Source: Candidatus Cloacimonetes bacterium HGW-Cloacimonetes-3 (GTDB lineage: Bacteria; Cloacimonadota; Cloacimonadia; Cloacimonadales; Cloacimonadaceae). Taken from it: a stretch of DNA of 64,000 nucleotides. Shown here piece by piece: positions 37,258-49,694 of the stretch (position 1 is its first letter; each line of letters opens with the position of its first letter). The stretch is from NCBI GenBank assembly GCA_002840645.1, contig PHBO01000011.1:1-64000 (forward strand). Direction: 5' to 3'. Position numbers and translations under genes: made by a program. Below the pieces are notes generated by a model. That model was not told the origin of the DNA. It worked only from the letters and a program-made list of their open reading frames with translations, and made no database searches.

Positions 37258-40089
37258 ATGAAGAAATTACTACTACTAACCATTATTCTTGCCATCGCAT
37301 CCCTATCCTTTGCCTTTAATCCAAAAACGTTCAATCAACAAATCAAGGTAACAGGCTCCGACATAATGTCTTATGTGGACGTAGCGTCTCCGGCGACTGA
37401 TACAGATTGGTTCGCGTCTGCTACTGATATTACCGCAGTCGAAACGATTACAACTCTTACCAAACCTGCCTCGCTGATCAGAGTTTGTACAATGAGTGGT
37501 CCCGTGGGTATTGTTGCATGGGTTATTTTTGATGCCCAGGCATTTGCAACCCTTGGAGCAGTTCCGGTAGGCAGACAATTTTCCGTAACAATAACATATT
37601 TGGGAAACCCTAATCCCACTACGAACTCCGCTACCAGAATAATCACAACCGGAACAGGTGGAGCACAATGGTTTTACACCCCAGTTACAGGTACCGACAA
37701 TTCTTGGTATCTTCCAGCCAGCATGTTCAACCAAGCAGACGTCTATCAACTTACAATTGGTTCAATCCCTGTTGGTGTGTATCCAATCCTCAAGAATGCG
37801 GAAGTAACAGGTAACAGTACCCCATGGAGTTCAGCAGCACTTGCTAGCCCAGATTCATTAGTAGGTACCTACAGTTTAGCAACCGAAGTGGGTTATCATT
37901 GGGAACCTGCGTCTATAGAAGTAACTGCCGGAGACTTTATCACTCGTACTGCATATCAAAAAAATATATACTTCACCAAAGTGCTGGATCAAGGTACTTA
38001 TGAGCTTACGATTACTTCTACCCCTCCAGGAGCTGCTATTTTCAAAGACGGTGTGAATACCAATTTTGTAACACCGTGGATATCCAGCCCGGGCGCAGCA
38101 GGTACATATTCTGTCCAGATGGCGGGTTACACTTGGAATCCCACTGAAATAGTGGTACCAACTCTTACACAAAACACCTCAATCAGTTTCACCGGCACCC
38201 AAAACCAGATATCCATAACCGCCAATTATGCTGCAAGGATATATAAAAATGGAATAGCGATCAACCCTGCTATCTACACGACCGGTACAAATGTTCCTGT
38301 GATGCTCACTGGTGCAGGAACTTACTCAGTTGTAAGAGCTAATACCGTATGGACACCTGCTTCATATGTGTTTGACGGAATTTCCAGTCAATCCATACGT
38401 TTTATAGGTGTTATGACCCCTGTGGCAGTAACCAACCCTGTTCCAACTGATAATTATGTATATCAAATACCCTTTTCTGCTCCCACAACAGCGGTTTACC
38501 CTCTTTCATGGGGTGCCGTGACCGGTGTAACCGGTTACAAAGTCTATTTTGGTGCAGATCCCGCAACACCTGAATTACTTGCTACCGTTACCACCGGCAC
38601 AACAGTAAACACACCGGCAATTGGTGAAGGTGCTTACACTTGGAGAGTAGTACCCTATATCACAGATCCCGCTAAAGGTGGCACTCGCAGTCTTGCGCCA
38701 GTGAAAGCAGCCATCTCCGTTAGTGGTACCCGAGGCGATGGTCCCGCAGTGGATTGGCATTTCACTATCGTACGTCTTCCCGAACCGGACACATACACAT
38801 ATAATCTGCAAGTGAACGGACCTGCCGGCTATGCAGTAACCGGTCCCGTAAACGGAACCACACCCTATCTTGCTACAGATAATGATGGAACCCAAGCTAA
38901 CTCCTTGCTCGGTTCCTACACCATCGCTGCTGCACCGGCTAATTTCCATTGGGAAGTTAATCCTATCGTAGTGATTGCGAGTAACTTTGTCCCAGCAAGA
39001 ACCAACTACATTTACAATGCTACCATCACCTTTGTTCTGGTAGAGAATCCCACTATTGCCACTCCGACCATCAGCCCCGCAGCCGGGACATACACCACAG
39101 CCCAGAATGTGACGCTTGCATGCACCACTCCCGGAGCACAGATACGTTATACCACAAATGGAACCGAGCCTACCGCTACTTCCACTTTGTATAGTGTAGC
39201 CATAAACGTTGCCACCACTACTACCATCAAAGCCAAGGGGTTTCTTACTAACTGGATACCCAGCGCAACCGCAACTGCTGCATACGTGATCACCGGCACA
39301 GTCGCTACACCAACCTTCACACCTGCAGCCGGAACCTATACCACAGCACAGAATGTGACCCTTGCCTGCACAACAGCTGGAGCACAGATTCGCTATACTA
39401 CTGATGGAACAGATCCCACTGCCACTTCCACATTATATAGTGCTGCGATACCTGTTGCTGCCACTTTAACAATTAAGGCTAAGGGATTCCTTACAGACTG
39501 GACTCCCAGCGCAGTTGCAACTGCTGCATACGTGATCACCGGCACCGTCGCTACACCAACTTTCACCCCCGAACCGGGAAACTACCAGAACCAGTTGGAC
39601 GTAACTCTTGCCTGTGCCACAGCCGGTGCTTCTATCCGTTATACCCTGGATGGGACCGAGCCAGTAGCAACTTCTCCGCTGTATTCACTGCCTATTCATC
39701 TAACCCAAACTACAACCATCAAGGCAAAAGGATTTAAAACCGACTGGACAACCAGTGCCACCGCATCAGGTCTTTACGATATCGCTGTGGCAAATCCTGA
39801 AGAACCTAATGTGCCGGTTGTAACGGGAATCAGTGACATTTACCCCAATCCCTTCAACTCCTCAACTACCATTAAACTGGGCGTAAAGGAAGCTAACCAG
39901 GGATACCAACTAAATATCTATAACATCAAAGGCGAATGCGTTTACCGCAATGCCGGTAACGCAAAGGGCAGCTTCGATCTGAAGTGGAACGGACATAGCA
40001 GTTCCGGGGAAAAACTTCCCTCTGGAATCTACCTTATTTCCTTCACTTCCGGCAGCACTACCCAGACCAGAAAAGCCGTAATCAAGTAA
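37258..40089 (+). CDS. Large surface protein with PEGA-like, chitobiase-C-like and sorting domains
   Basis: A 943-aa exported protein (signal peptide to about residue 19). Residues about 180-400 hold repeated PEGA-like modules (YELTITSTPPGAAIFKDG). A fibronectin-like stretch near 420 is followed by three copies of an about 82-residue CHB_HEX_C-type module (TPAAGTYTTAQNVTLAC, IRYTTDGTDPTATSTLYS), about 600-840. The last 80 residues are a sorting domain (ISDIYPNPFNSSTTIKLG, then LPSGIYLISF). Such proteins bind or display on the cell surface; no enzyme domain is seen. AAAAGGAG precedes the ATG, and a terminator follows. Confidence 0.85.
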   Translation: MKKLLLLTIILAIASLSFAFNPKTFNQQIKVTGSDIMSYVDVASPATDTDWFASATDITAVETITTLTKPASLIRVCTMSGPVGIVAWVIFDAQAFATLGAVPVGRQFSVTITYLGNPNPTTNSATRIITTGTGGAQWFYTPVTGTDNSWYLPASMFNQADVYQLTIGSIPVGVYPILKNAEVTGNSTPWSSAALASPDSLVGTYSLATEVGYHWEPASIEVTAGDFITRTAYQKNIYFTKVLDQGTYELTITSTPPGAAIFKDGVNTNFVTPWISSPGAAGTYSVQMAGYTWNPTEIVVPTLTQNTSISFTGTQNQISITANYAARIYKNGIAINPAIYTTGTNVPVMLTGAGTYSVVRANTVWTPASYVFDGISSQSIRFIGVMTPVAVTNPVPTDNYVYQIPFSAPTTAVYPLSWGAVTGVTGYKVYFGADPATPELLATVTTGTTVNTPAIGEGAYTWRVVPYITDPAKGGTRSLAPVKAAISVSGTRGDGPAVDWHFTIVRLPEPDTYTYNLQVNGPAGYAVTGPVNGTTPYLATDNDGTQANSLLGSYTIAAAPANFHWEVNPIVVIASNFVPARTNYIYNATITFVLVENPTIATPTISPAAGTYTTAQNVTLACTTPGAQIRYTTNGTEPTATSTLYSVAINVATTTTIKAKGFLTNWIPSATATAAYVITGTVATPTFTPAAGTYTTAQNVTLACTTAGAQIRYTTDGTDPTATSTLYSAAIPVAATLTIKAKGFLTDWTPSAVATAAYVITGTVATPTFTPEPGNYQNQLDVTLACATAGASIRYTLDGTEPVATSPLYSLPIHLTQTTTIKAKGFKTDWTTSATASGLYDIAVANPEEPNVPVVTGISDIYPNPFNSSTTIKLGVKEANQGYQLNIYNIKGECVYRNAGNAKGSFDLKWNGHSSSGEKLPSGIYLISFTSGSTTQTRKAVIK
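39055..39780 (+). repeat. Three tandem about 246-bp coding repeats
   Basis: Inside the 37258 gene, blocks of about 246 bp (82 codons) recur three times. For example, GCAACTGCTGCATACGTGAT is identical at 39271 and 39517. The third copy is more diverged. High DNA identity suggests recent duplication or gene conversion of the chitobiase-C-like module. Confidence 0.85.
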
Positions 40090-40377: not shown

Positions 40378-41718
40378 ATGCAGTTTTTAAAGCCTGACAA
40401 AGAACTTATGGGAGGAAAAAGCTTGTTTTATACCGTTTATCTGTATGCGCTAAACACGAAGTTACTGCGTGTAATTATCCTCATAAGCCTTTGTGTGGGG
40501 TGTTATTTTGCTCCTCTAAGCGCAGAATTACTTATCCCCATGGATATCACCCAAAGCAATCATTTAAAAGCCTATGGCATTGCTTTTCAGGGTTTAAAAG
40601 ACCAATTGGTGGGTAAATGGCTGCTGAACTACCGGGGGGGCAGCTTTCTCTTCCCGGATTCGAATGCGCTGGCAGCTTTATGCAACATACGCGGGGTACG
40701 CTTCGAGACCATTTCCTCCTCTCAGGTGGCAAGCATCCTCAGCGAAATACAAGAAGCTAATATGGAAAGCGTAACCCTGGAAAAAGAGCCGAAGATAGCC
40801 GTTTATATCCCGCCCAATGCGCTGCCCTGGGATGATGCGGTGACGCTGGCATTGGAATATGCCGAGATAGAATACGAGAAACTTTGGGATGACGAGGTGC
40901 TGGAAGGCAAGCTGAATGATTACGATTGGCTGCATCTGCATCACGAGGATTTCTCCGGACAATACGGCAAGTTTTATGGTGCATACCGCAACACAAGCTG
41001 GTATCAGAACGATATAACAGTGAACGAAGCCATGGCTGCCAAACACGGCTATAACAAAGTGTGGCAATTGAAGCATGCTGTGGCGGAAAAAGTGCGGGAG
41101 TTTGTGCTAAGCGGGGGATTCATGTTTGCCATGTGTGCCGCCACAGATACTTTTGATATCGCTTTGGCTGCGAATAATATGGACATTGTGGACAGCGTCA
41201 TCGATGGAGATGGCATAGACCCCCAGTTTAACAAGAAGCTGGATTTCAGTCGTACTTTTGCCTTCGAAAACTTTGCCGTGCGCCCCAACCCCTTTGAATA
41301 CGAGTTTTCCGATATAGACGCCAGTGACTACTCTATGCTGCGTGGAGCTGAGGCAGATTATTTCCAGCTCTTCGATTTCTCTGCCAAATACGACCCCGTG
41401 CCTACGATGCTTACCCAATGCCATACTAACATCATTGACGGCTTTTTGGGGCAGACCACCTCCTTTTTTAAAGACAAGGTGAAGAAGAGCGTGATTATCC
41501 TTGCCGAAGTGCCGGGGCAAAATGAAGTTAAGTACATTCACGGCAACATTGGCAAAGGCACTTTTACCTTCTATGGCGGGCATGATCCTGAAGATTACCA
41601 ACATAAGGTAGGCGATCCGGAAACCATTCTGGAGCTTTACAAGAACTCCCCCGGCTATCGCCTGATCCTGAATAATGTGCTGTTCCCTGCTGCGGAAAAG
41701 AAGCAACTGAAAACCTGA
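40378..41718 (+). CDS. Secreted 'AsnB-like' protein, likely misnamed family
   Basis: A 446-aa protein with an exported N terminus (hydrophobic residues about 30-50, then AELLIPMD). The body (LLNYRGGSFLFPD, KIAVYIPPNALPWDDAV, YDWLHLHHEDFSG, FVLSGGFMFAMCAATDTFD) matches a Bacteroidota family often labelled asparagine synthetase B; no AsnB N-terminal Cys amidotransferase or ATP site is seen. The alternating folds look like a class I glutamine-amidotransferase-like domain. It starts the block leading to the MCE and Omp85 genes. The start is uncertain: ATG at 40378, ATG at 40408, or a TTG at 40423 preceded by GGGAGGAAAAAGC. Confidence 0.7.
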   Translation: MQFLKPDKELMGGKSLFYTVYLYALNTKLLRVIILISLCVGCYFAPLSAELLIPMDITQSNHLKAYGIAFQGLKDQLVGKWLLNYRGGSFLFPDSNALAALCNIRGVRFETISSSQVASILSEIQEANMESVTLEKEPKIAVYIPPNALPWDDAVTLALEYAEIEYEKLWDDEVLEGKLNDYDWLHLHHEDFSGQYGKFYGAYRNTSWYQNDITVNEAMAAKHGYNKVWQLKHAVAEKVREFVLSGGFMFAMCAATDTFDIALAANNMDIVDSVIDGDGIDPQFNKKLDFSRTFAFENFAVRPNPFEYEFSDIDASDYSMLRGAEADYFQLFDFSAKYDPVPTMLTQCHTNIIDGFLGQTTSFFKDKVKKSVIILAEVPGQNEVKYIHGNIGKGTFTFYGGHDPEDYQHKVGDPETILELYKNSPGYRLILNNVLFPAAEKKQLKT

Positions 41719-41725
41719 GGTATAT

Positions 41726-42628
41726 GTGAAAAAGTTCTATCCCAAGCTCCGAAGTGTTCAGATAAAAACCGGAATATGGACTGTGGTGATTGCCCTGATC
41801 CTGCTGTTTAGCTACCTGTGGCTTACTAACCGGCTGGCAATGGGCTCCAGCTACCAGATTGGCGTCACTTTCAGTGATGTGAATGGCTTGGAAGTTGGTG
41901 ATAAAGTGGTTTTCAGAGGCATGGAAGTGGGACGGGTGAAAAGCATAAAAGCCAGGGGTGATGCCATTATCGTTCTGGCAGGCGTAAATACTGAAATATC
42001 CTTACAGGAAGGCAGCAGTTTTCAGGTTACGGATAGCGGATTAATGGGTGGAAAGATGCTGATGATCAGCCCCGGAAAAGGCACGGCTAAGATAGATATT
42101 ACCAAAATGCAACAGGGCACCTCGCCGGAAGGCATTATGAACATGATCGGCAAAGCCTCTGATACTTTGGCAGAATTGCAGAATGCAATGGTGGCTTTAC
42201 AGGCTCCGGATGGGTTGCTGCAAGGTTCTTCCCGCCTGATAGGAAGCGCGGAAGATGCAGTGCAATCCGCCGATCTTGCAGCCCGGGAGCTAAAAAAAGA
42301 GCTTAGCGCTGTGATTATGCGGGTGGACAGGCTTACCGCCGGACTGAATGAAGTAGTGCAGGAAAACCGCAGTCCGCTGAAAAACAGCATTGCTGAAGCT
42401 CCCGCTACCATAGCAAAGATAAATAGTACTCTGGATAGCCTGCAAACGCTGTCCGGCAACCTGAACAAAACCGCGGAAGCATTGCATAATGGCGATGGCA
42501 CCGCGGCTAAACTATTAAATAATGATGAGCTGTACACCAGGCTAAACACCTCGCTGGAAAACCTTGATACCTTGATTAAGGACATTAAGGCGCACCCCAA
42601 GAAATACGTTAAATTCAGTTTATTTTAG
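41726..42628 (+). CDS. MlaD/MCE-family protein
   Basis: A 300-aa MCE protein starting with GTG (GAGG 5 nt before). One N-terminal membrane helix (about residues 16-34), then the MCE domain at about 38-120 with VNGLEVGDKVVFRGMEVG and the central loop GLMGGKMLMISPG, then a helical tail (SADLAARELKKELSAV). MCE proteins form ring channels that carry lipids between inner and outer membranes. No MlaE/MlaF genes are next to it; the operon partners here are an AsnB-like protein and an Omp85 fusion, which suits envelope lipid handling. Confidence 0.88.
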   Translation: MKKFYPKLRSVQIKTGIWTVVIALILLFSYLWLTNRLAMGSSYQIGVTFSDVNGLEVGDKVVFRGMEVGRVKSIKARGDAIIVLAGVNTEISLQEGSSFQVTDSGLMGGKMLMISPGKGTAKIDITKMQQGTSPEGIMNMIGKASDTLAELQNAMVALQAPDGLLQGSSRLIGSAEDAVQSADLAARELKKELSAVIMRVDRLTAGLNEVVQENRSPLKNSIAEAPATIAKINSTLDSLQTLSGNLNKTAEALHNGDGTAAKLLNNDELYTRLNTSLENLDTLIKDIKAHPKKYVKFSLF

Positions 42629-42635
42629 GAAACAA

Positions 42636-45600
42636 ATGAAAAAGTTTATATATGCCCTCCTCTTACTGCTGCTCTTGTTTGGCAGTAGTGCCCATGCCCT
42701 TTCCTTCGGACAAAACAAGGTGAATGCCAAAGATCAGAACTGGTCTCGTATCCAAACCATGCATTTCGACATCTATTTCCCCAAGGGAGAGGATGAATTC
42801 GGTAAAACAGCCTCACTGATGGCGGAAGATATCTATTACTACATAAAGGCTGAGTTCAAAATACCCATCCTAAGCCGCATACCGATTATCTTCTATGCTT
42901 CCAAGACAGAGTTTCAAACCACGAATATCATCTATCAGCTGCTATCCGAAGGCGTGGGCGGATTCACCGAAAGCCTGCGTAACCGTGTGGTAGTGCCCTT
43001 CGACGGCAGCTATGCCGCTCTGGAAGAATTGCTTGCGCATGAGCTTACTCATGCCTATGTAAATGCGATGGATACACGCTTTGTGAGTGCTTTTTCGCCT
43101 CTGCGTCCTATTGCCTTCCCCTTCTGGTTCTCGGAAGGTTTGCCGGAATACCTGTCTATCGGCGGGGAAGATGAGTATAACAACATGTTCCTGATGGATA
43201 TGGTGATAAACGACCGCATCGGCAAGCTGCAGGAAACAGACGGCTATCTGGCATACAGGCTGGGAGAGAGCTTCCTGTCCTATATTGCCGATACCTGGGG
43301 ACGCCAGAAGGTGCCGGAGTACTTCTTTGCCGTTCGCAGCATGAACAACCTTAATGATGCCACCAAGAAAGTCTTCGGCATGGATTTTGAGGAATTGGAA
43401 TCCCGCTGGAACTACCAGCTGAAAAGGGATTACTTCCCCCGCATCAACAGCCATGGCATCCCCATGGAAAGCTTTGAGCAGCGCACTTTTCACCGCAAGG
43501 ATGGCTCTTACTTCAATTTCTCTCCCCGCTTCTCGCCCGACGGCACACGCTTTGTGTATTACTCCAATGCCGGTGCCCGTTACAGTTTGTGGATGGCGGG
43601 AACCCAGGGCCTGGATAAAGGAAAAATGATCCTGAGGGGTGAAAGCAGTGCCAAACTGGAGGAGTTCTATTATTTCCGCTCCAGCCTGAGCTGGTTTCCT
43701 GATAACCGCAGGATAGCCTTTGCCGCCAAGACTTCGGATGGGGACAAGATACACATCTTCGACGTGGACAAAACCAAGATACTGGAAACACTAAGCTTTA
43801 AAGAACTTAATGCCATATACGAGGTGGATGTATCTCCGGATGGAAAGCATCTGGTGTTTTCGGGGCAGAGCGGCATGCAAGCCGATTTGTTCTTGTATGA
43901 TATTGAAGCCAAAGTGCTTACCCGCCTTACTAATGATGCTTTTAACGATGCACGTCCCCGTTTCTCGCCGGATGGCTTGCAGATTGCCTACGATTCTGAA
44001 CACAGACAGCCAAGCAGTGAAATCCGTTACGGCTTGTTTTCGGATATCGTGCGGGATGTATTCACTCTGGATATCGCCACCAGAGAAGTGGTTCAGGTTA
44101 CTGCCGAAGCATACGATTGCTCTGCGCCCATGTGGGTGGATAGTGGCAATAAGCTGGTATATATCTCAACCAGAAGCAAGATAAGCAATTTCGAAGTAAC
44201 AGACCTAAACAGCGGAGCCCGTGCGGAACTTGCCACCACCATGGCAGGGGTATTTGCCGGAGACCTCTCTTCCGGGGACGAATACCTGATTATGGCAAAT
44301 TACTTCAATGGTGCATGGGACATATATTTCGATGACAACCCCCTGCAAAAACTAAACTATGAAGATCACCAGGTTCCCACAAGTTTCCAGCGTGATAATG
44401 ACCTGTTGGACACGATAGACTTTTCGCGGTTGGATTACTATGGTAAACGCAGCAAGGCAGAGCAGAAGCGCAGTAATCCGGGGCGAATCGCTAATCCCCG
44501 CCGACCGATGTTTGTGAAGCACGAGTTCAGCCGTGAGGATTCACTACGCCTTTTCCCGGATTTCAGCTGGGACGACAAGCCGGATAGCCTCATAGTTCCC
44601 GTGGAGATAAAGCCCTACCGCACCAGATTTGCCCTGGAACACCTTTGGGGAGGGATGGCATATTCTTCTTCGCAGGGTGCAATCGGAAACATTGAACTGG
44701 GCTTGGGGGATCTGATGGGAAACCATGGCATCGGCATAAGCCTGGGCATCAGTGACAAGCTGGAGGAATCCAACCTGCTACTCTCTTACGTATACTTGAA
44801 ACACAGAGCAGATTACGGCATCGGGCTTTACAATTTCTACGATGATTACCTGTATAGATTTGCCCTTCCCGGGCAGGATGAATACCTTAGATTACGCAGC
44901 CGTGAAACTGGGATAAACTTAATTTTCCGCTATCCTTTCAGCCGTTTTACCAGAATTGAGATGGATAACCGCTTGTATCAGGTGGAGCAGAACTGGGATT
45001 GGCTACCCGCCGCCAACGTGGCTGAAGAACTATGGGTGGAGAACATAGACAAGGAAACTGATACCGTGTTTGCCCCGGGTTTAAGCCTCGTGCATGACAA
45101 TTCTATCTCCGGCTCTACCGGTCCTCTGGTGGGCTGGCGGGCTATCTACCACATCCGCAAAAGCTTTGCTGCAAAAGAGCAGGAGTACCTAACAAACTAT
45201 TTGGACATCCGCAGTTACACCCTTTTCAGCAAACGTTACAGCTTTGCTGCAAGGCTTAATGGCGGGATCAGCACAGGCAAGAACCCTGATCGTTTTAATC
45301 TGAACGGCTATTATGGTGTCCGTGCTCTGGATACCACCTTAAGCGGCAATAAGAAAGCCCTTGCCACCATGGAACTGCGTTTCCCCTTCCTGGATTACCT
45401 TGCTATAGCCTTCCCCATTCCGCTGGCTATGGGGAACATCCGGGGCAGCATATTTGCCGATGCAGGCAGCGTTTGGGACGACACCGACAAGTTCCGCGGG
45501 GTTATTGATAACAAGCTGGAAGATATCAAGCTTGGTTATGGCTTTGGACCTCGGCTAAATCTGGGATATTTTGTCCTGAAGTTTGATGTTGCCTGGCAGA

Positions 45601-45659
45601 CAGACCTCTCGAACATATCCAAACCCCTTTATTACTTAAGCCTTACCGACGACTTTTAG
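42636..45659 (+). CDS. Zinc metallopeptidase / TolB-like propeller / Omp85-type barrel fusion
   Basis: A 1007-aa exported protein (signal peptide to about residue 21). Residues about 30-250 are a gluzincin domain with LLAHELTHAYV (HExxH near residue 134) and the glutamate in WFSEGLPEYLS near residue 168, of the peptidase-MA type. Residues about 280-560 have PD40/WD40-like blades (RFSPDGTRFVYYSN, VDVSPDGKHLVFSG, RFSPDGLQIAYDS). Residues about 640-1007 look like a BamA/TamA-type outer-membrane barrel (SLVHDNSISGSTGPLVGW, GYYGVRALDTTLSGNKKALATMELRFP kept short here, GFGPRLNLGYFVLKFDVAW). It would anchor a protease at the outer membrane. Confidence 0.85.
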   Translation: MKKFIYALLLLLLLFGSSAHALSFGQNKVNAKDQNWSRIQTMHFDIYFPKGEDEFGKTASLMAEDIYYYIKAEFKIPILSRIPIIFYASKTEFQTTNIIYQLLSEGVGGFTESLRNRVVVPFDGSYAALEELLAHELTHAYVNAMDTRFVSAFSPLRPIAFPFWFSEGLPEYLSIGGEDEYNNMFLMDMVINDRIGKLQETDGYLAYRLGESFLSYIADTWGRQKVPEYFFAVRSMNNLNDATKKVFGMDFEELESRWNYQLKRDYFPRINSHGIPMESFEQRTFHRKDGSYFNFSPRFSPDGTRFVYYSNAGARYSLWMAGTQGLDKGKMILRGESSAKLEEFYYFRSSLSWFPDNRRIAFAAKTSDGDKIHIFDVDKTKILETLSFKELNAIYEVDVSPDGKHLVFSGQSGMQADLFLYDIEAKVLTRLTNDAFNDARPRFSPDGLQIAYDSEHRQPSSEIRYGLFSDIVRDVFTLDIATREVVQVTAEAYDCSAPMWVDSGNKLVYISTRSKISNFEVTDLNSGARAELATTMAGVFAGDLSSGDEYLIMANYFNGAWDIYFDDNPLQKLNYEDHQVPTSFQRDNDLLDTIDFSRLDYYGKRSKAEQKRSNPGRIANPRRPMFVKHEFSREDSLRLFPDFSWDDKPDSLIVPVEIKPYRTRFALEHLWGGMAYSSSQGAIGNIELGLGDLMGNHGIGISLGISDKLEESNLLLSYVYLKHRADYGIGLYNFYDDYLYRFALPGQDEYLRLRSRETGINLIFRYPFSRFTRIEMDNRLYQVEQNWDWLPAANVAEELWVENIDKETDTVFAPGLSLVHDNSISGSTGPLVGWRAIYHIRKSFAAKEQEYLTNYLDIRSYTLFSKRYSFAARLNGGISTGKNPDRFNLNGYYGVRALDTTLSGNKKALATMELRFPFLDYLAIAFPIPLAMGNIRGSIFADAGSVWDDTDKFRGVIDNKLEDIKLGYGFGPRLNLGYFVLKFDVAWQTDLSNISKPLYYLSLTDDF

Positions 45660-45685: not shown

Positions 45686-47167
45686 ATGAAGATTGACGTT
45701 ATTCGCAAGCTTCCTGAGCATCTGGACACGCTGATACTGATGCAGGAGGAGAGCGGTACTATTCAAAGTGTAGAATATGTACCAGCCGAACTTCTTAGCC
45801 CGATTGAGACATTTATGAAGAGTGAGGAGTTTAGCTTCAGCTATGCTAACCTTAAGAGCTTCAGCATGATTGTAGCCAAACGCCGTCTCAACATCATTTT
45901 ACTTGGAGTGGGAGACAAAGAAGCTTTAACCCCAAACAAGCTTCGTAATCTGTTTGCCTCCGCCATACGCACGGCAGCTAAGATGAATGCGCGCCAGATT
46001 TATCTATTTCCCGGCTTTACCAGCACGGTGAACGATGTAGCTTTTGGCCACGTGCTTGCTGAATCCGCCTTATTAGTAGCCTACCGGTTTGACAAATACC
46101 TCAATTCGGACAAGAATAAGCTATTCCCCGAATCCCTGCATTATGTGCTGAACACCAAGAACACCCGCCACTTGAACCGCGGCATTCTGGAAGGCAGAAT
46201 CTATGCAGACGCAACCAATCTTGCCCGTGACATGGTGAATGAACCTGCTAACGTGATGACTCCGGATGCCCTTGCAGAGGCTGCCAAACGTGCTGCCCTG
46301 CAATATGGCTTCACGATTGAGACCCATTCCCAGGACAAGCTGCGCCGTATAAAAATGGATGCTTTCCTGGCAGTGGGACGTGGCTCTGTGCGCGAACCAA
46401 AGCTGATCATTATGCGCTTCAACGGCAATCCGGACAAGCGTCAGGAGTGTATTGCCTTAGTTGGTAAGGGGCTTACCTACGACAGTGGTGGCTATTGCAT
46501 CAAAACCCCGCAAGGCATGGTGAACATGAAGAACGATATGGGCGGTGCTGCTGCCGTTATCGGCGCTATGTGTGCCATAAGCTCAATGAAGCTGAAAGTG
46601 AACGTGGTAGCTATCGTTGCTGCTTGTGAGAACATGATTTCCGGCGATGCTTACCGCACGGGTGACATTATCACCTCTATGGCAGGTAAAACCATCGAAG
46701 TGATAAACACCGATGCGGAAGGTCGCCTGACCCTTTGCGATGCCATCCACTATGCTATAGAAAAAGAGCATGCTGATAGGATTGTGGATATTGCCACCCT
46801 AACCGGAGCCGCTGTTGCTGCTTTAGGTAACCAGTTTTCTGCCGTTGTAACCAATAACGATGCCTGGTTGGAACAGCTTAAAACTGCTGCTTCCTTCACC
46901 GGTGAGAACATCTGGCAGCTTCCCGCCCATGATGAATACAAAGAACTGCTGAAATCAGACATTGCCGATCTAAAAAACGTGGGTGGACCAATGGGTGGAG
47001 CCATAACCGCAGGATTGTTCCTGCGTGAGTTTGTGCAGGATAAACCCTGGCTGCATATAGATATTGCCGGTACAGCTTTGAAAGATAAAGAAAGCGGCAT
47101 CAATCCCTATGGCGCCACCGGTGTGGGAGTTCGCATGCTTACTTCCCTGTTAAAAGGCATGGAATAG
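45686..47167 (+). CDS. pepA: Leucyl aminopeptidase (M17)
   Basis: A 493-aa M17 aminopeptidase. ANVMTPDALAEAA near residue 188, VGKGLTYDSGGYCIKTP (metal Lys/Asp) near residue 264, KNDMGGAAAV near residue 281 and NTDAEGRLTLCDA near residue 342 are the two-metal active site. It removes N-terminal residues from peptides, matching amino-acid fermentation. AAGGAG precedes the ATG, 26 nt after the Omp85 fusion. Confidence 0.95.
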   Translation: MKIDVIRKLPEHLDTLILMQEESGTIQSVEYVPAELLSPIETFMKSEEFSFSYANLKSFSMIVAKRRLNIILLGVGDKEALTPNKLRNLFASAIRTAAKMNARQIYLFPGFTSTVNDVAFGHVLAESALLVAYRFDKYLNSDKNKLFPESLHYVLNTKNTRHLNRGILEGRIYADATNLARDMVNEPANVMTPDALAEAAKRAALQYGFTIETHSQDKLRRIKMDAFLAVGRGSVREPKLIIMRFNGNPDKRQECIALVGKGLTYDSGGYCIKTPQGMVNMKNDMGGAAAVIGAMCAISSMKLKVNVVAIVAACENMISGDAYRTGDIITSMAGKTIEVINTDAEGRLTLCDAIHYAIEKEHADRIVDIATLTGAAVAALGNQFSAVVTNNDAWLEQLKTAASFTGENIWQLPAHDEYKELLKSDIADLKNVGGPMGGAITAGLFLREFVQDKPWLHIDIAGTALKDKESGINPYGATGVGVRMLTSLLKGME

Positions 47168-47197
47168 CCAAGCTAAGATAAATATCCATGCATCTTG

Positions 47198-47240
47198 CCT
47201 GCTTGCATTACGGTATCAATGATACTGTGATGCAAGCGGA
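47198..47240. promoter_or_regulatory. Inverted repeat in front of znuA
   Basis: CTTGCATTACGGTATC (47202-47217) faces GATACTGTGATGCAAG (47221-47236), a 16-bp stem with two G-T type mismatches and a 3-nt loop. It sits 31 nt before the znuA ATG. It could be a zinc-regulator (Zur-type) operator. It also begins CCTGCTTG and ends GCAAG like the 11-nt phased elements, so it may be a minimal member of that family. Confidence 0.5.
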
Positions 47241-47267
47241 GATGTTATAGAGAATAAGGAGGTCCAA

Positions 47268-48167
47268 ATGAGGTACATAAAGCTATGCCTGTTACTGAGT
47301 TTGCTTTTAACCGTTTCTTGCCAACAGCACAAAGAAAGAAAAAGACCGCTGTTATTAGCGTCTATCCATCCCTACGAGTTACTTTTAAAGCAGCTTGCCG
47401 GTAGTGATTTTGATGTACAATGCATCATTCCTGCCAATGCTTCACCCCATACCTGGTCTCCTAATCCTTCAGATCTGAAAGCAATAATGGAAGCTTCCTT
47501 CATTCTGTCCAATGGGCTGGGTTTGGAAGCCCATCTGGAAAACAGCTTCGCCACCCGTGCATTTGTCCGTGTGCAAGCAGCAAAGCTAATAAAGGATGCT
47601 ATTCCTCACCCTGTGGATGAGCAACATGAAGCTGATGGCGACCACCAGCACTTAGGACAGGATCCCCACCTTTGGACTTCTCCACGGCTTATGATTCGCT
47701 TGGTAACGGCAGTGGCAAATGAGCTCAGCAGACGCTTTCCCAATTCTGCTCTTGTATTCCGCCAAAATGCCGAGACTATGCGCAGGGAACTGGATGAAGC
47801 AGCAGAATTGATCAAGACTGAGCGAGAAGCTTATCTCGAGCCGGGATTGATTACTTACCACAATACTTTCTATTATTTCACCAAAGAATTTGACATTAAG
47901 TACCTTGGCTGGGTGCAATTCTCTCCGGGGAAAGAGCCCCGCCCCAAAGACCTTGCCGGTTTGGGGGAAACAATACAAGCTCATAAAGTGAAAGCCGTAT
48001 TCATAGAGCCACAAATGGATAGAAAAGCCGGAGAAGTATTGGCTAAAGAGTTCGGCTTAAAGCTGCTACTGCTGGATTCTCTTGGAAGTGATGCTAAGGC
48101 AAAAACCATAGCAGAACTTATTCTCACCAACTGGGATAGCATGAAGGAGGCATTCACAGAGAAATGA
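47268..48167 (+). CDS. znuA: Zinc ABC transporter, substrate-binding lipoprotein
   Basis: A 299-aa lipoprotein: the signal peptide ends at TVSC (Cys18). The metal histidines lie in ASIHPYELLLKQL, NASPHTWSPNPSDL, QDPHLWTSPRL and ITYHNTFYYF. A His/Asp-rich loop (HPVDEQHEADGDHQH) marks zinc rather than manganese binding. It delivers Zn2+ to ZnuBC. AGGAGG precedes the ATG, and its stop overlaps the znuC start. An inverted repeat upstream may hold the regulator site. Confidence 0.93.
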   Translation: MRYIKLCLLLSLLLTVSCQQHKERKRPLLLASIHPYELLLKQLAGSDFDVQCIIPANASPHTWSPNPSDLKAIMEASFILSNGLGLEAHLENSFATRAFVRVQAAKLIKDAIPHPVDEQHEADGDHQHLGQDPHLWTSPRLMIRLVTAVANELSRRFPNSALVFRQNAETMRRELDEAAELIKTEREAYLEPGLITYHNTFYYFTKEFDIKYLGWVQFSPGKEPRPKDLAGLGETIQAHKVKAVFIEPQMDRKAGEVLAKEFGLKLLLLDSLGSDAKAKTIAELILTNWDSMKEAFTEK

Positions 48168-48892
48168 TAGGGATCAGTAACCTTCAGTACAAGCTTGGCG
48201 GAAAGAGCATTCTTGAGGATATCAATCTTGAAATCCCCGATGGGGAGTTTGTGGCAATTATTGGTCCCAATGGTGCCGGCAAATCCACCCTGATTAAGCT
48301 TATCCTGGGGCTTTATGATCTTCAGGAGGGTGAGATTATCATCGATGGGATTACACAGACAGCCTGGCTGAAAGCAAATAGCTTTGGTTATCTGCCCCAG
48401 CATGAGGAGTTTGACCGCAGCTTTCCCGCTACTGCCCTGGATATTGCCCTGATGGGACTTGCCGGCAGAATTCCTCTTGCCGCCAGGCTAAAAGCAAGCC
48501 ACAGAACGGAAGCTATGGCTGCGTTGGAGCAAACGGGTGTGGCACATCATGCCAAAGACCTGATTGGCAAGCTATCCGGTGGAGAGTTTCAGCGCGTACT
48601 GCTTGCCCGTGCCATCGTGGGCGGAAGCACGTACCTCATCCTTGATGAACCCGAAGCAAGCCTGGACAGACCTTCCGTGGAGAGCTTCTTTGCCTTGCTT
48701 AAAAACTTGAATGAAGCCGGGCATACCATTATCACCATCTCCCACGACCTGAATATCCTGTCTGAATATTGCAGCTTTCTGGTGTGCCTGAACCGCCGTC
48801 TGCACTGCCATAATCATACAGAATTGGTTACCTCAGAAATCATCCACAAGACCTTTGGCGACAGCGTCCGAATCATCGAGAAGGACTACTAA
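48164..48892 (+). CDS. znuC: Zinc ABC transporter, ATPase
   Basis: A 242-aa ABC ATPase: Walker A GPNGAGKST near residue 35, Q-loop LPQHEEF, signature LSGGEFQRV near residue 133, Walker B YLILDEPEASLD and switch histidine in ITISHDL. It powers ZnuB. It overlaps znuA by 4 nt (ATGA) and the permease follows after 4 nt. Confidence 0.94.
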   Translation: MIGISNLQYKLGGKSILEDINLEIPDGEFVAIIGPNGAGKSTLIKLILGLYDLQEGEIIIDGITQTAWLKANSFGYLPQHEEFDRSFPATALDIALMGLAGRIPLAARLKASHRTEAMAALEQTGVAHHAKDLIGKLSGGEFQRVLLARAIVGGSTYLILDEPEASLDRPSVESFFALLKNLNEAGHTIITISHDLNILSEYCSFLVCLNRRLHCHNHTELVTSEIIHKTFGDSVRIIEKDY

Positions 48893-48896
48893 GGCG

Positions 48897-49694
48897 ATGT
48901 TTAAGTATCATTTCATGCTGAACGCTCTGTTTGGTTCTTTGCTTTCCGGGCTAAGCCTTGCTATTTTTGCACCTTATGTAACTCTGCGCCGTATCTCCTA
49001 TATGGGCGAAGCGCTTTCCCACATTGCCTTTGCGGGCATAGCCATCGCTATCCTGTTTGGGCTTAATCTCACTTTCAGTACGCTGATATTTGTTATTCTA
49101 ATTAGCCTTGCCATAGGTGCAATATCCCGCCGGCACAAGCTTCAGGAAGCAAACACAATCAGCATCTTTCTCTCGGTTAGCATGGCGCTGGGCATTATCC
49201 TTATCAGTGTTTCCAAGAACTATAGCTTCGATCTTGCCAGTTACCTGTTCGGCAATGTTTTGCTGATCACCGGTTCGGAGTTGTATAGCCTGATAATCCT
49301 TAATATCCTTAATCTAACATTTGTTTTAGTGTTTTATAAGGAACTGTTCTATCTTACCTACAATGCGGAAATGGCAAAGGTATTCCGTATCCGTACGGGC
49401 TTGGTAAACCAAATATTCCTTATTCTGTTGGCTGCAAATATCGTAATCAATCTTAAGAGTGCCGGGATAATTCTGGTAACGGCACAGCTTATTCTACCGG
49501 CTGTAATAGCTTTTAATTTCGTCCATACATTGCATCGGGCAATTATTGTATCCGCGATAGTTGCTTTTCTATCTGCTTTTATCGGATTTTATCTCAGCTT
49601 CAACCTGAACCTGCCTACCGGTGCAACTATTGTGCTTTTCGAAGCACTTATCTATTTTCTAAGCTTGTCTTTCAGAGGGAAAAACAATGCATAA
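48897..49694 (+). CDS. znuB: Zinc ABC transporter, permease
   Basis: A 265-aa ABC-3 family permease with about eight membrane helices. LRRISYMGEALSHIAFAGIA near residue 28 is the family signature that contacts the ATPase. The start at 48897 (MFKYHFMLNAL) follows the znuC stop by 4 nt; a start 42 nt earlier would lie inside znuC. It overlaps the next gene by 8 nt. Confidence 0.92.
   Translation: MFKYHFMLNALFGSLLSGLSLAIFAPYVTLRRISYMGEALSHIAFAGIAIAILFGLNLTFSTLIFVILISLAIGAISRRHKLQEANTISIFLSVSMALGIILISVSKNYSFDLASYLFGNVLLITGSELYSLIILNILNLTFVLVFYKELFYLTYNAEMAKVFRIRTGLVNQIFLILLAANIVINLKSAGIILVTAQLILPAVIAFNFVHTLHRAIIVSAIVAFLSAFIGFYLSFNLNLPTGATIVLFEALIYFLSLSFRGKNNA

Follow-up and report, generated by a model that had tools for sequence, protein, structure and literature searches.

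Proteins that place a propeller before an Omp85 barrel are grouped as WD40-Omp85, and likened to a fusion of BamA with BamB, in the main text of Heinz and Lithgow (2014; PMC4104836), where the 'Metallo' class rests on PF00149. The enzyme domain of the Omp85 protein PlpD is periplasmic, and loss of PlpD alters membrane lipids (PMC11116518); an Omp85 protein can thus hold a periplasmic enzyme and affect membrane lipids. On the side of lipid transport, the Mla system ends at the outer membrane in MlaA-OmpC in E. coli and in the barrel of a long MlaD in Veillonella (PMC10665443). In a 2023 survey, the MlaD barrel was reported to be completely absent from FCB sequences (PMC10665443). How MCE systems without MlaA reach the outer membrane is a question for the FCB group that the protein family described here may help to answer.

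The focal gene lies in a 64,000-nucleotide stretch of DNA (the window) from Candidatus Cloacimonetes bacterium HGW-Cloacimonetes-3 and encodes a chain that runs from a signal peptide through a Peptidase_MA-type HExxH domain, a propeller and a linker to an Omp85 barrel (Table 1). The combination of a protease, a TolB-like propeller and an Omp85-type barrel in one chain, proposed when the DNA was first read, is borne out by Pfam, an AlphaFold2 model and fold search. Pfam places Peptidase_MA_2 (PF13485) at residues 81-262 (E 6e-8; 33.1 bits against a curated cut-off of 32.4) and Omp85 (PF01103) at residues 746-988 (E 1.8e-12; 47.8 bits, cut-off 24), and PD40 is matched over its curated cut-off (E 1e-17). 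PF00149, the basis of the 'Metallo' class, we take to be a phosphoesterase family. In the model, built from 51 sequences (pLDDT 78, pTM 0.78), the propeller spans residues 294-567 and 16 barrel strands are predicted at residues 665-1004, in line with the C-terminal barrel on which the original prediction had staked its case. A fold search of the PDB with the model led from the propeller to TolB and from the barrel to BamA, and the model of a Calditrichota homologue is alike, with 16 strands (pLDDT 84.6, pTM 0.83). Full-length homologues keep the frame and the architecture down to about 30-37% identity, which argues that neither arose by chance.

Table 1. Features of the focal gene and its neighbours (positions in the window; residues of the focal protein)
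Feature	Position	Strand	Details
'AsnB-like' secreted protein, first gene of run	40378..41718	+	7-bp gap
MCE (MlaD-type) gene, 7 bp upstream of focal gene	41726..42628	+	PF02470, E 2e-16
Conserved MCE C-terminal tail (DTLIKDIKAHPKKYVKFSLF)	42566..42625	+	every focal-linked MCE protein read from Cloacimonadota has it
Focal gene: metallopeptidase / TolB-like propeller / Omp85-barrel protein	42636..45659	+	single open frame, 1007 aa
Predicted signal peptide, residues about 1-20	42636..42695	+	by eye: MKKF, hydrophobic run, AHA
Metallopeptidase domain, residues 36-279	42741..43472	+	Peptidase_MA_2; mixed helix/strand in model; highest conservation
HELTH zinc motif: H135, E136, H139	43038..43052	+	H, E, H identical in 137/137 distinct homologues
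EGLPEY: candidate third zinc ligand E167	43134..43151	+	E167, G168, E171 identical in 137/137
TolB-like beta-propeller, residues 286-567	43491..44336	+	PD40; TolB in PDB sequence and fold searches
Disordered linker, residues about 576-654	44361..44597	+	pLDDT <50 across most; lowest conservation
Omp85-type 16-strand barrel, residues 658-1007	44607..45656	+	PF01103; model strands; BamA in fold search
VRAL: counterpart of Omp85 VRGF/Y motif	45318..45329	+	R896 identical in 137/137
M17 leucyl aminopeptidase, 26 bp downstream of focal gene	45686..47167	+	PF00883, E 1e-123

The protein departs from the best-known relatives of its parts. Its propeller has the fold of TolB, but its score of 97.9 bits against the NCBIfam TolB equivalog is far below the cut-off of 343.15 set for the TolB of Tol-Pal; no MlaA domain (PF04333) is matched in it by Pfam. 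Unlike BamA and TamA, which are POTRA-bearing Omp85 proteins, it has no POTRA domain in either the Pfam scan or the AlphaFold2 model. An Omp85 barrel joined to a TolB/BamB-type propeller would suit an assembly factor that resembles BamA plus BamB, its barrel inserting other barrels and its propeller recruiting partners, as Heinz and Lithgow suggested, and this agrees with the general function of Omp85 proteins (PMC4104836). We nevertheless judge this role improbable: the model has no POTRA, the window's genome carries a separate, stronger Omp85 match in a BamA-like frame (contig C6, E 3e-51), and both the invariant peptidase site and the Mla linkage described below would be left unexplained.

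Conservation across 137 distinct homologues is higher in the peptidase (mean 0.574) than in the propeller (0.507) or the barrel (0.504). H135, E136, H139, E167, G168, E171, Y207 and G210 are invariant in 137/137, which rules out a dead peptidase and supports a zinc peptidase, in line with the HExxH peptidase of the original prediction; the conserved HExxH...E site fits an active enzyme of the gluzincin type, and the protein would be expected to bind zinc and cleave protein substrates. In the barrel, the Arg of the VRGF/Y motif is a feature of the Omp85/TpsB superfamily; the residue after R896 is G in 108 and A in 29 of the same 137 homologues.

The original prediction allowed this peptidase to face either the cell surface or the periplasm. 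An N-terminal enzyme joined to a C-terminal Omp85 barrel recalls the arrangement for which export was first proposed in PlpD, and a surface protease would arise if the barrel exported the peptidase and the propeller. However, the enzyme domain of PlpD was shown to stay periplasmic (PMC11116518), export would require the passage of about 570 folded residues through the barrel, and the near-universal presence and lipid-transport linkage set out below suit a housekeeping role in the periplasm. A surface-facing orientation is therefore unlikely, and export of the whole N-terminal portion through the barrel appears highly improbable.

Homologues are found in 119 of 125 Cloacimonadota genomes, including 71/71 of those of high quality, usually as one full-length copy; in 39 of 40 Calditrichota genomes, most of which encode additional family members; and in 186 of 199 Marinimicrobia genomes. 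A scan of a genome collection yielded at least 516 relatives, and the 80 kept from it include proteins of Ignavibacteria, Kryptonia, KSB1 and Bacteroidota-labelled contigs. The family tree mostly tracks phyla, with the Cloacimonadota proteins forming one clade. A 32%-identical copy in a Cloacimonadota genome (G097:C56, L073/L093) is doubtful as a true paralogue: it is 89% identical to the homologue on a Marinimicrobia contig and nests within Marinimicrobia in the tree, so the contig that carries it is probably mis-binned. Among the additional Calditrichota members, some of about 940-1000 aa form a group of their own. Some Cloacimonadota encode separate proteins of 949-1008 aa (L069:5365-8391, L070:4456-7305, L072:4472-7411) that are weakly similar to the focal peptidase domain; the two of this type that were scanned gave no Omp85 or PD40 match.

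In the window, genes for the AsnB-like protein, the MCE protein, the focal protein and PepA follow one another on a single strand, 7, 7 and 26 bp apart, and the MCE gene that had been placed beside the focal gene is confirmed by its MlaD match (E 2e-16). Conservation of this neighbourhood across Cloacimonadota, proposed as a check, holds for the MCE gene and fails for the AsnB-like gene. An MCE gene is directly upstream of the focal gene in 96 of the 103 Cloacimonadota genomes whose contig reaches far enough, as judged from the domain table, flank scans and loci read directly; the seven exceptions are G092, G103, G104, G106, G107, G117 and G119. In 20 genomes, from deep lineages, an MlaF-type ATPase precedes the MCE gene. 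The gene on the other side of the focal gene varies by lineage, so general synteny alone does not account for the MCE link. The M17 leucyl aminopeptidase is such a lineage-specific neighbour, its place beside the focal gene being confined to the window's family (f1). The AsnB-like protein, which has no Pfam or NCBIfam match, is encoded next to these genes, among the loci read, only in f1 and at one f3 locus; it is thus ruled out as a core partner and falls outside the module to which the original prediction had assigned it.

The C-terminal tail of the MCE protein (Table 1) is also found in MCE proteins of other phyla and is a possible point of contact at the outer-membrane end. Downstream of the focal gene, positions 45686-49694 hold, in the arrangement of the window's family, the M17 aminopeptidase followed by genes for a zinc-type ABC transporter, ZnuA, ZnuC and ZnuB, a run that adjoins two predicted metallopeptidases. 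The 943-aa product of positions 37258-40089 is a secreted protein whose C-terminal repeats are chitobiase-like and which also carries a type IX secretion sorting domain.

A search for MlaA (PF04333) found it in 0/125 Cloacimonadota genomes, with the E. coli and Caulobacter controls positive. With no MlaA found here and the MlaD barrel reported absent from FCB sequences, the outer-membrane partner of these systems is missing, and a linked barrel protein is the obvious candidate. MlaE and MlaD are each encoded three times in the window's genome, which carries two complete MCE operons on other contigs (C23 and C28). Outside both operons lie the third MlaE (C26) and an MlaF (C24), which outscore the genome's other two copies against the focal-linked families; these two stand-alone genes are plausible partners of the window's MCE gene. 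In the MlaE tree, the C26 protein shares a broad group with the linked MlaE but sits on a long branch, not beside them, and its placement as their closest sister has no support. The C23 operon (L063:5410-10649) encodes a 722-aa lipoprotein in which a PqiC-like domain (PF03886) is joined to DUF481, then MlaE and MlaF, and is possibly a second MCE system with a built-in outer-membrane partner. On C28 (L064:6204-9062), MlaE is followed by a short ABC-ATPase-like protein with no recognisable Walker A motif; a comparable degenerate ATPase-like protein adjoins MlaE in another Cloacimonadota family (L050:15021-16459).

Linkage to MlaD, MlaE or MlaF is conserved across three phyla. The order homologue-MlaE-MlaF is seen at 11 of 30 Calditrichota loci, with the identities of MlaE and MlaF confirmed by Pfam and NCBIfam in one example, and MlaE is directly downstream of the homologue in 24 Marinimicrobia genomes, 13 of which were searched for MlaD and have exactly one MlaE and one MlaD each. 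Among loci from the collection scan, MlaE is directly downstream in 17/74, often overlapping the homologue or a few bases from it. The linked MlaE of Calditrichota and Marinimicrobia form one clade (support 100/96), which fits an old linkage. Other transport genes take the neighbouring place elsewhere: LptF-LptG is directly upstream of the homologue at one Ignavibacteriales locus, and a permease of the LptF/G cluster directly downstream at three Marinimicrobia loci. In some Ignavibacteria, the homologue is preceded on its own strand, at a distance of a few genes, by the gene for a protein of 1385-1515 aa; five such proteins were scanned, and three match AsmA/DUF748, one matches DUF748 weakly and one matches nothing, with one AsmA match and no DUF748 match over the curated cut-off. 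With MlaD, MlaE, MlaF, LptF/G or AsmA-type genes beside the homologues of several phyla, the lipid half of the proposed lipid or barrel quality-control module is well supported; barrel quality control stays a rival. At two Marinimicrobia loci (L122:7059-7799, L143:7067-7819), an LpxH-like gene (lipid A synthesis), scoring below the equivalog cut-off, lies beside the homologue on the opposite strand.

The family is not confined to genomes with Mla, as Marinimicrobia and Kryptonium genomes without MlaE carry it. MlaE is present in 57/199 Marinimicrobia genomes, against 186/199 for the focal homologue, and the MlaE-less genomes that were checked for MlaD, Kryptonium included, all lack it too, except G137. 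The many Marinimicrobia that keep the homologue with no detectable MlaE indicate that it has a role without Mla and does not serve in every lineage as a subunit dedicated to Mla. Because the focal gene must act without Mla in some genomes, a quality-control peptidase becomes a serious rival: a BepA-like enzyme fused to its own outer-membrane anchor would degrade outer-membrane proteins that are wrongly assembled (barrels, LPS or lipid-transport parts), and the lipid-transport neighbours would be merely co-regulated envelope genes. Persistence of the gene where Mla is lost agrees with this role, as do the variation of neighbours among Mla, LptF/G and AsmA-type genes and an invariant active site in the best-conserved domain; BepA itself, a periplasmic metallopeptidase that acts on LptD at BAM, is a precedent (PMC8423444). 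Yet no bam gene was recognised beside homologues in the loci read, and the recurring partners are specifically genes of inter-membrane lipid transport, with MlaE overlapping or nearly abutting at many loci. Taken together, we consider such a quality-control enzyme possible, though on the unlikely side.

The reading that we prefer, and to which we give about an even chance, is a periplasm-facing outer-membrane metallopeptidase that works with Mla-type lipid transport, probably as a dock or regulator. The 16-strand Omp85 barrel would anchor the protein, with the peptidase and the propeller in the periplasm. The protein would work with lipid transport of the MlaEFD (MCE) type between the inner and outer membranes, its likeliest role in the MlaEFD system being that of a dock or regulator at the outer membrane; helices of the MCE protein may reach from the inner membrane toward the propeller or the barrel, and the peptidase could process or clear a protein at the docking site, e.g., a stalled component of lipid transport. 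A direct role in moving lipid is conceivable as well, but a role as lipid conduit leaves the peptidase, the best-conserved domain, without explanation, and gene linkage can mean shared regulation rather than contact. Extended to the FCB group, the idea would make the Omp85-metallopeptidase a general outer-membrane terminus, mainly for MlaEFD and also for Lpt- and AsmA-type bridges, coupled to proteolysis; this broader version is doubtful and is offered tentatively. Near-universal presence in three phyla, linkage to transporters, a barrel and a predicted enzyme together make the protein a concrete, testable candidate. If the peptidase acts at the docking site, lipid traffic would be coupled to proteolysis, unlike anything known from E. 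coli.

As a dock, the focal protein would hold the place of MlaA-OmpC in E. coli and of the MlaD barrel in Veillonella, but it is built from unrelated domains, is encoded by a separate gene and includes a peptidase. PqiC (PF03886) is likewise an outer-membrane-side partner of an MCE protein, although PqiC is a lipoprotein. BepA, the M48 peptidase of E. coli, is also a periplasmic HExxH zinc peptidase at the outer membrane; it belongs to a different peptidase family and has no propeller or barrel. With the patatin-Omp85 proteins of the PlpD type, which are tied to membrane lipid homeostasis, the focal protein has in common an N-terminal enzyme and a 16-strand Omp85 barrel (PMC11116518), whereas a peptidase and a propeller replace the patatin and POTRA domains and the gene is linked to an ABC lipid transporter. 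The WD40-Omp85 subfamily shares a TolB-like propeller before an Omp85 barrel and the lack of POTRA domains (PMC4104836); the focal protein is placed with it by the description of the subfamily in that paper. The main text of the paper does not appear to name an HExxH peptidase or a linkage to Mla/MCE, and the focal protein has both. A search of mostly open-access literature, excluding bioRxiv preprints, found no report of an Omp85-propeller-peptidase or of a link between Omp85 and Mla. Thus, proteins that join a propeller to an Omp85 barrel were known, and what appears new is the HExxH peptidase within them and their neighbourhood of Mla genes.
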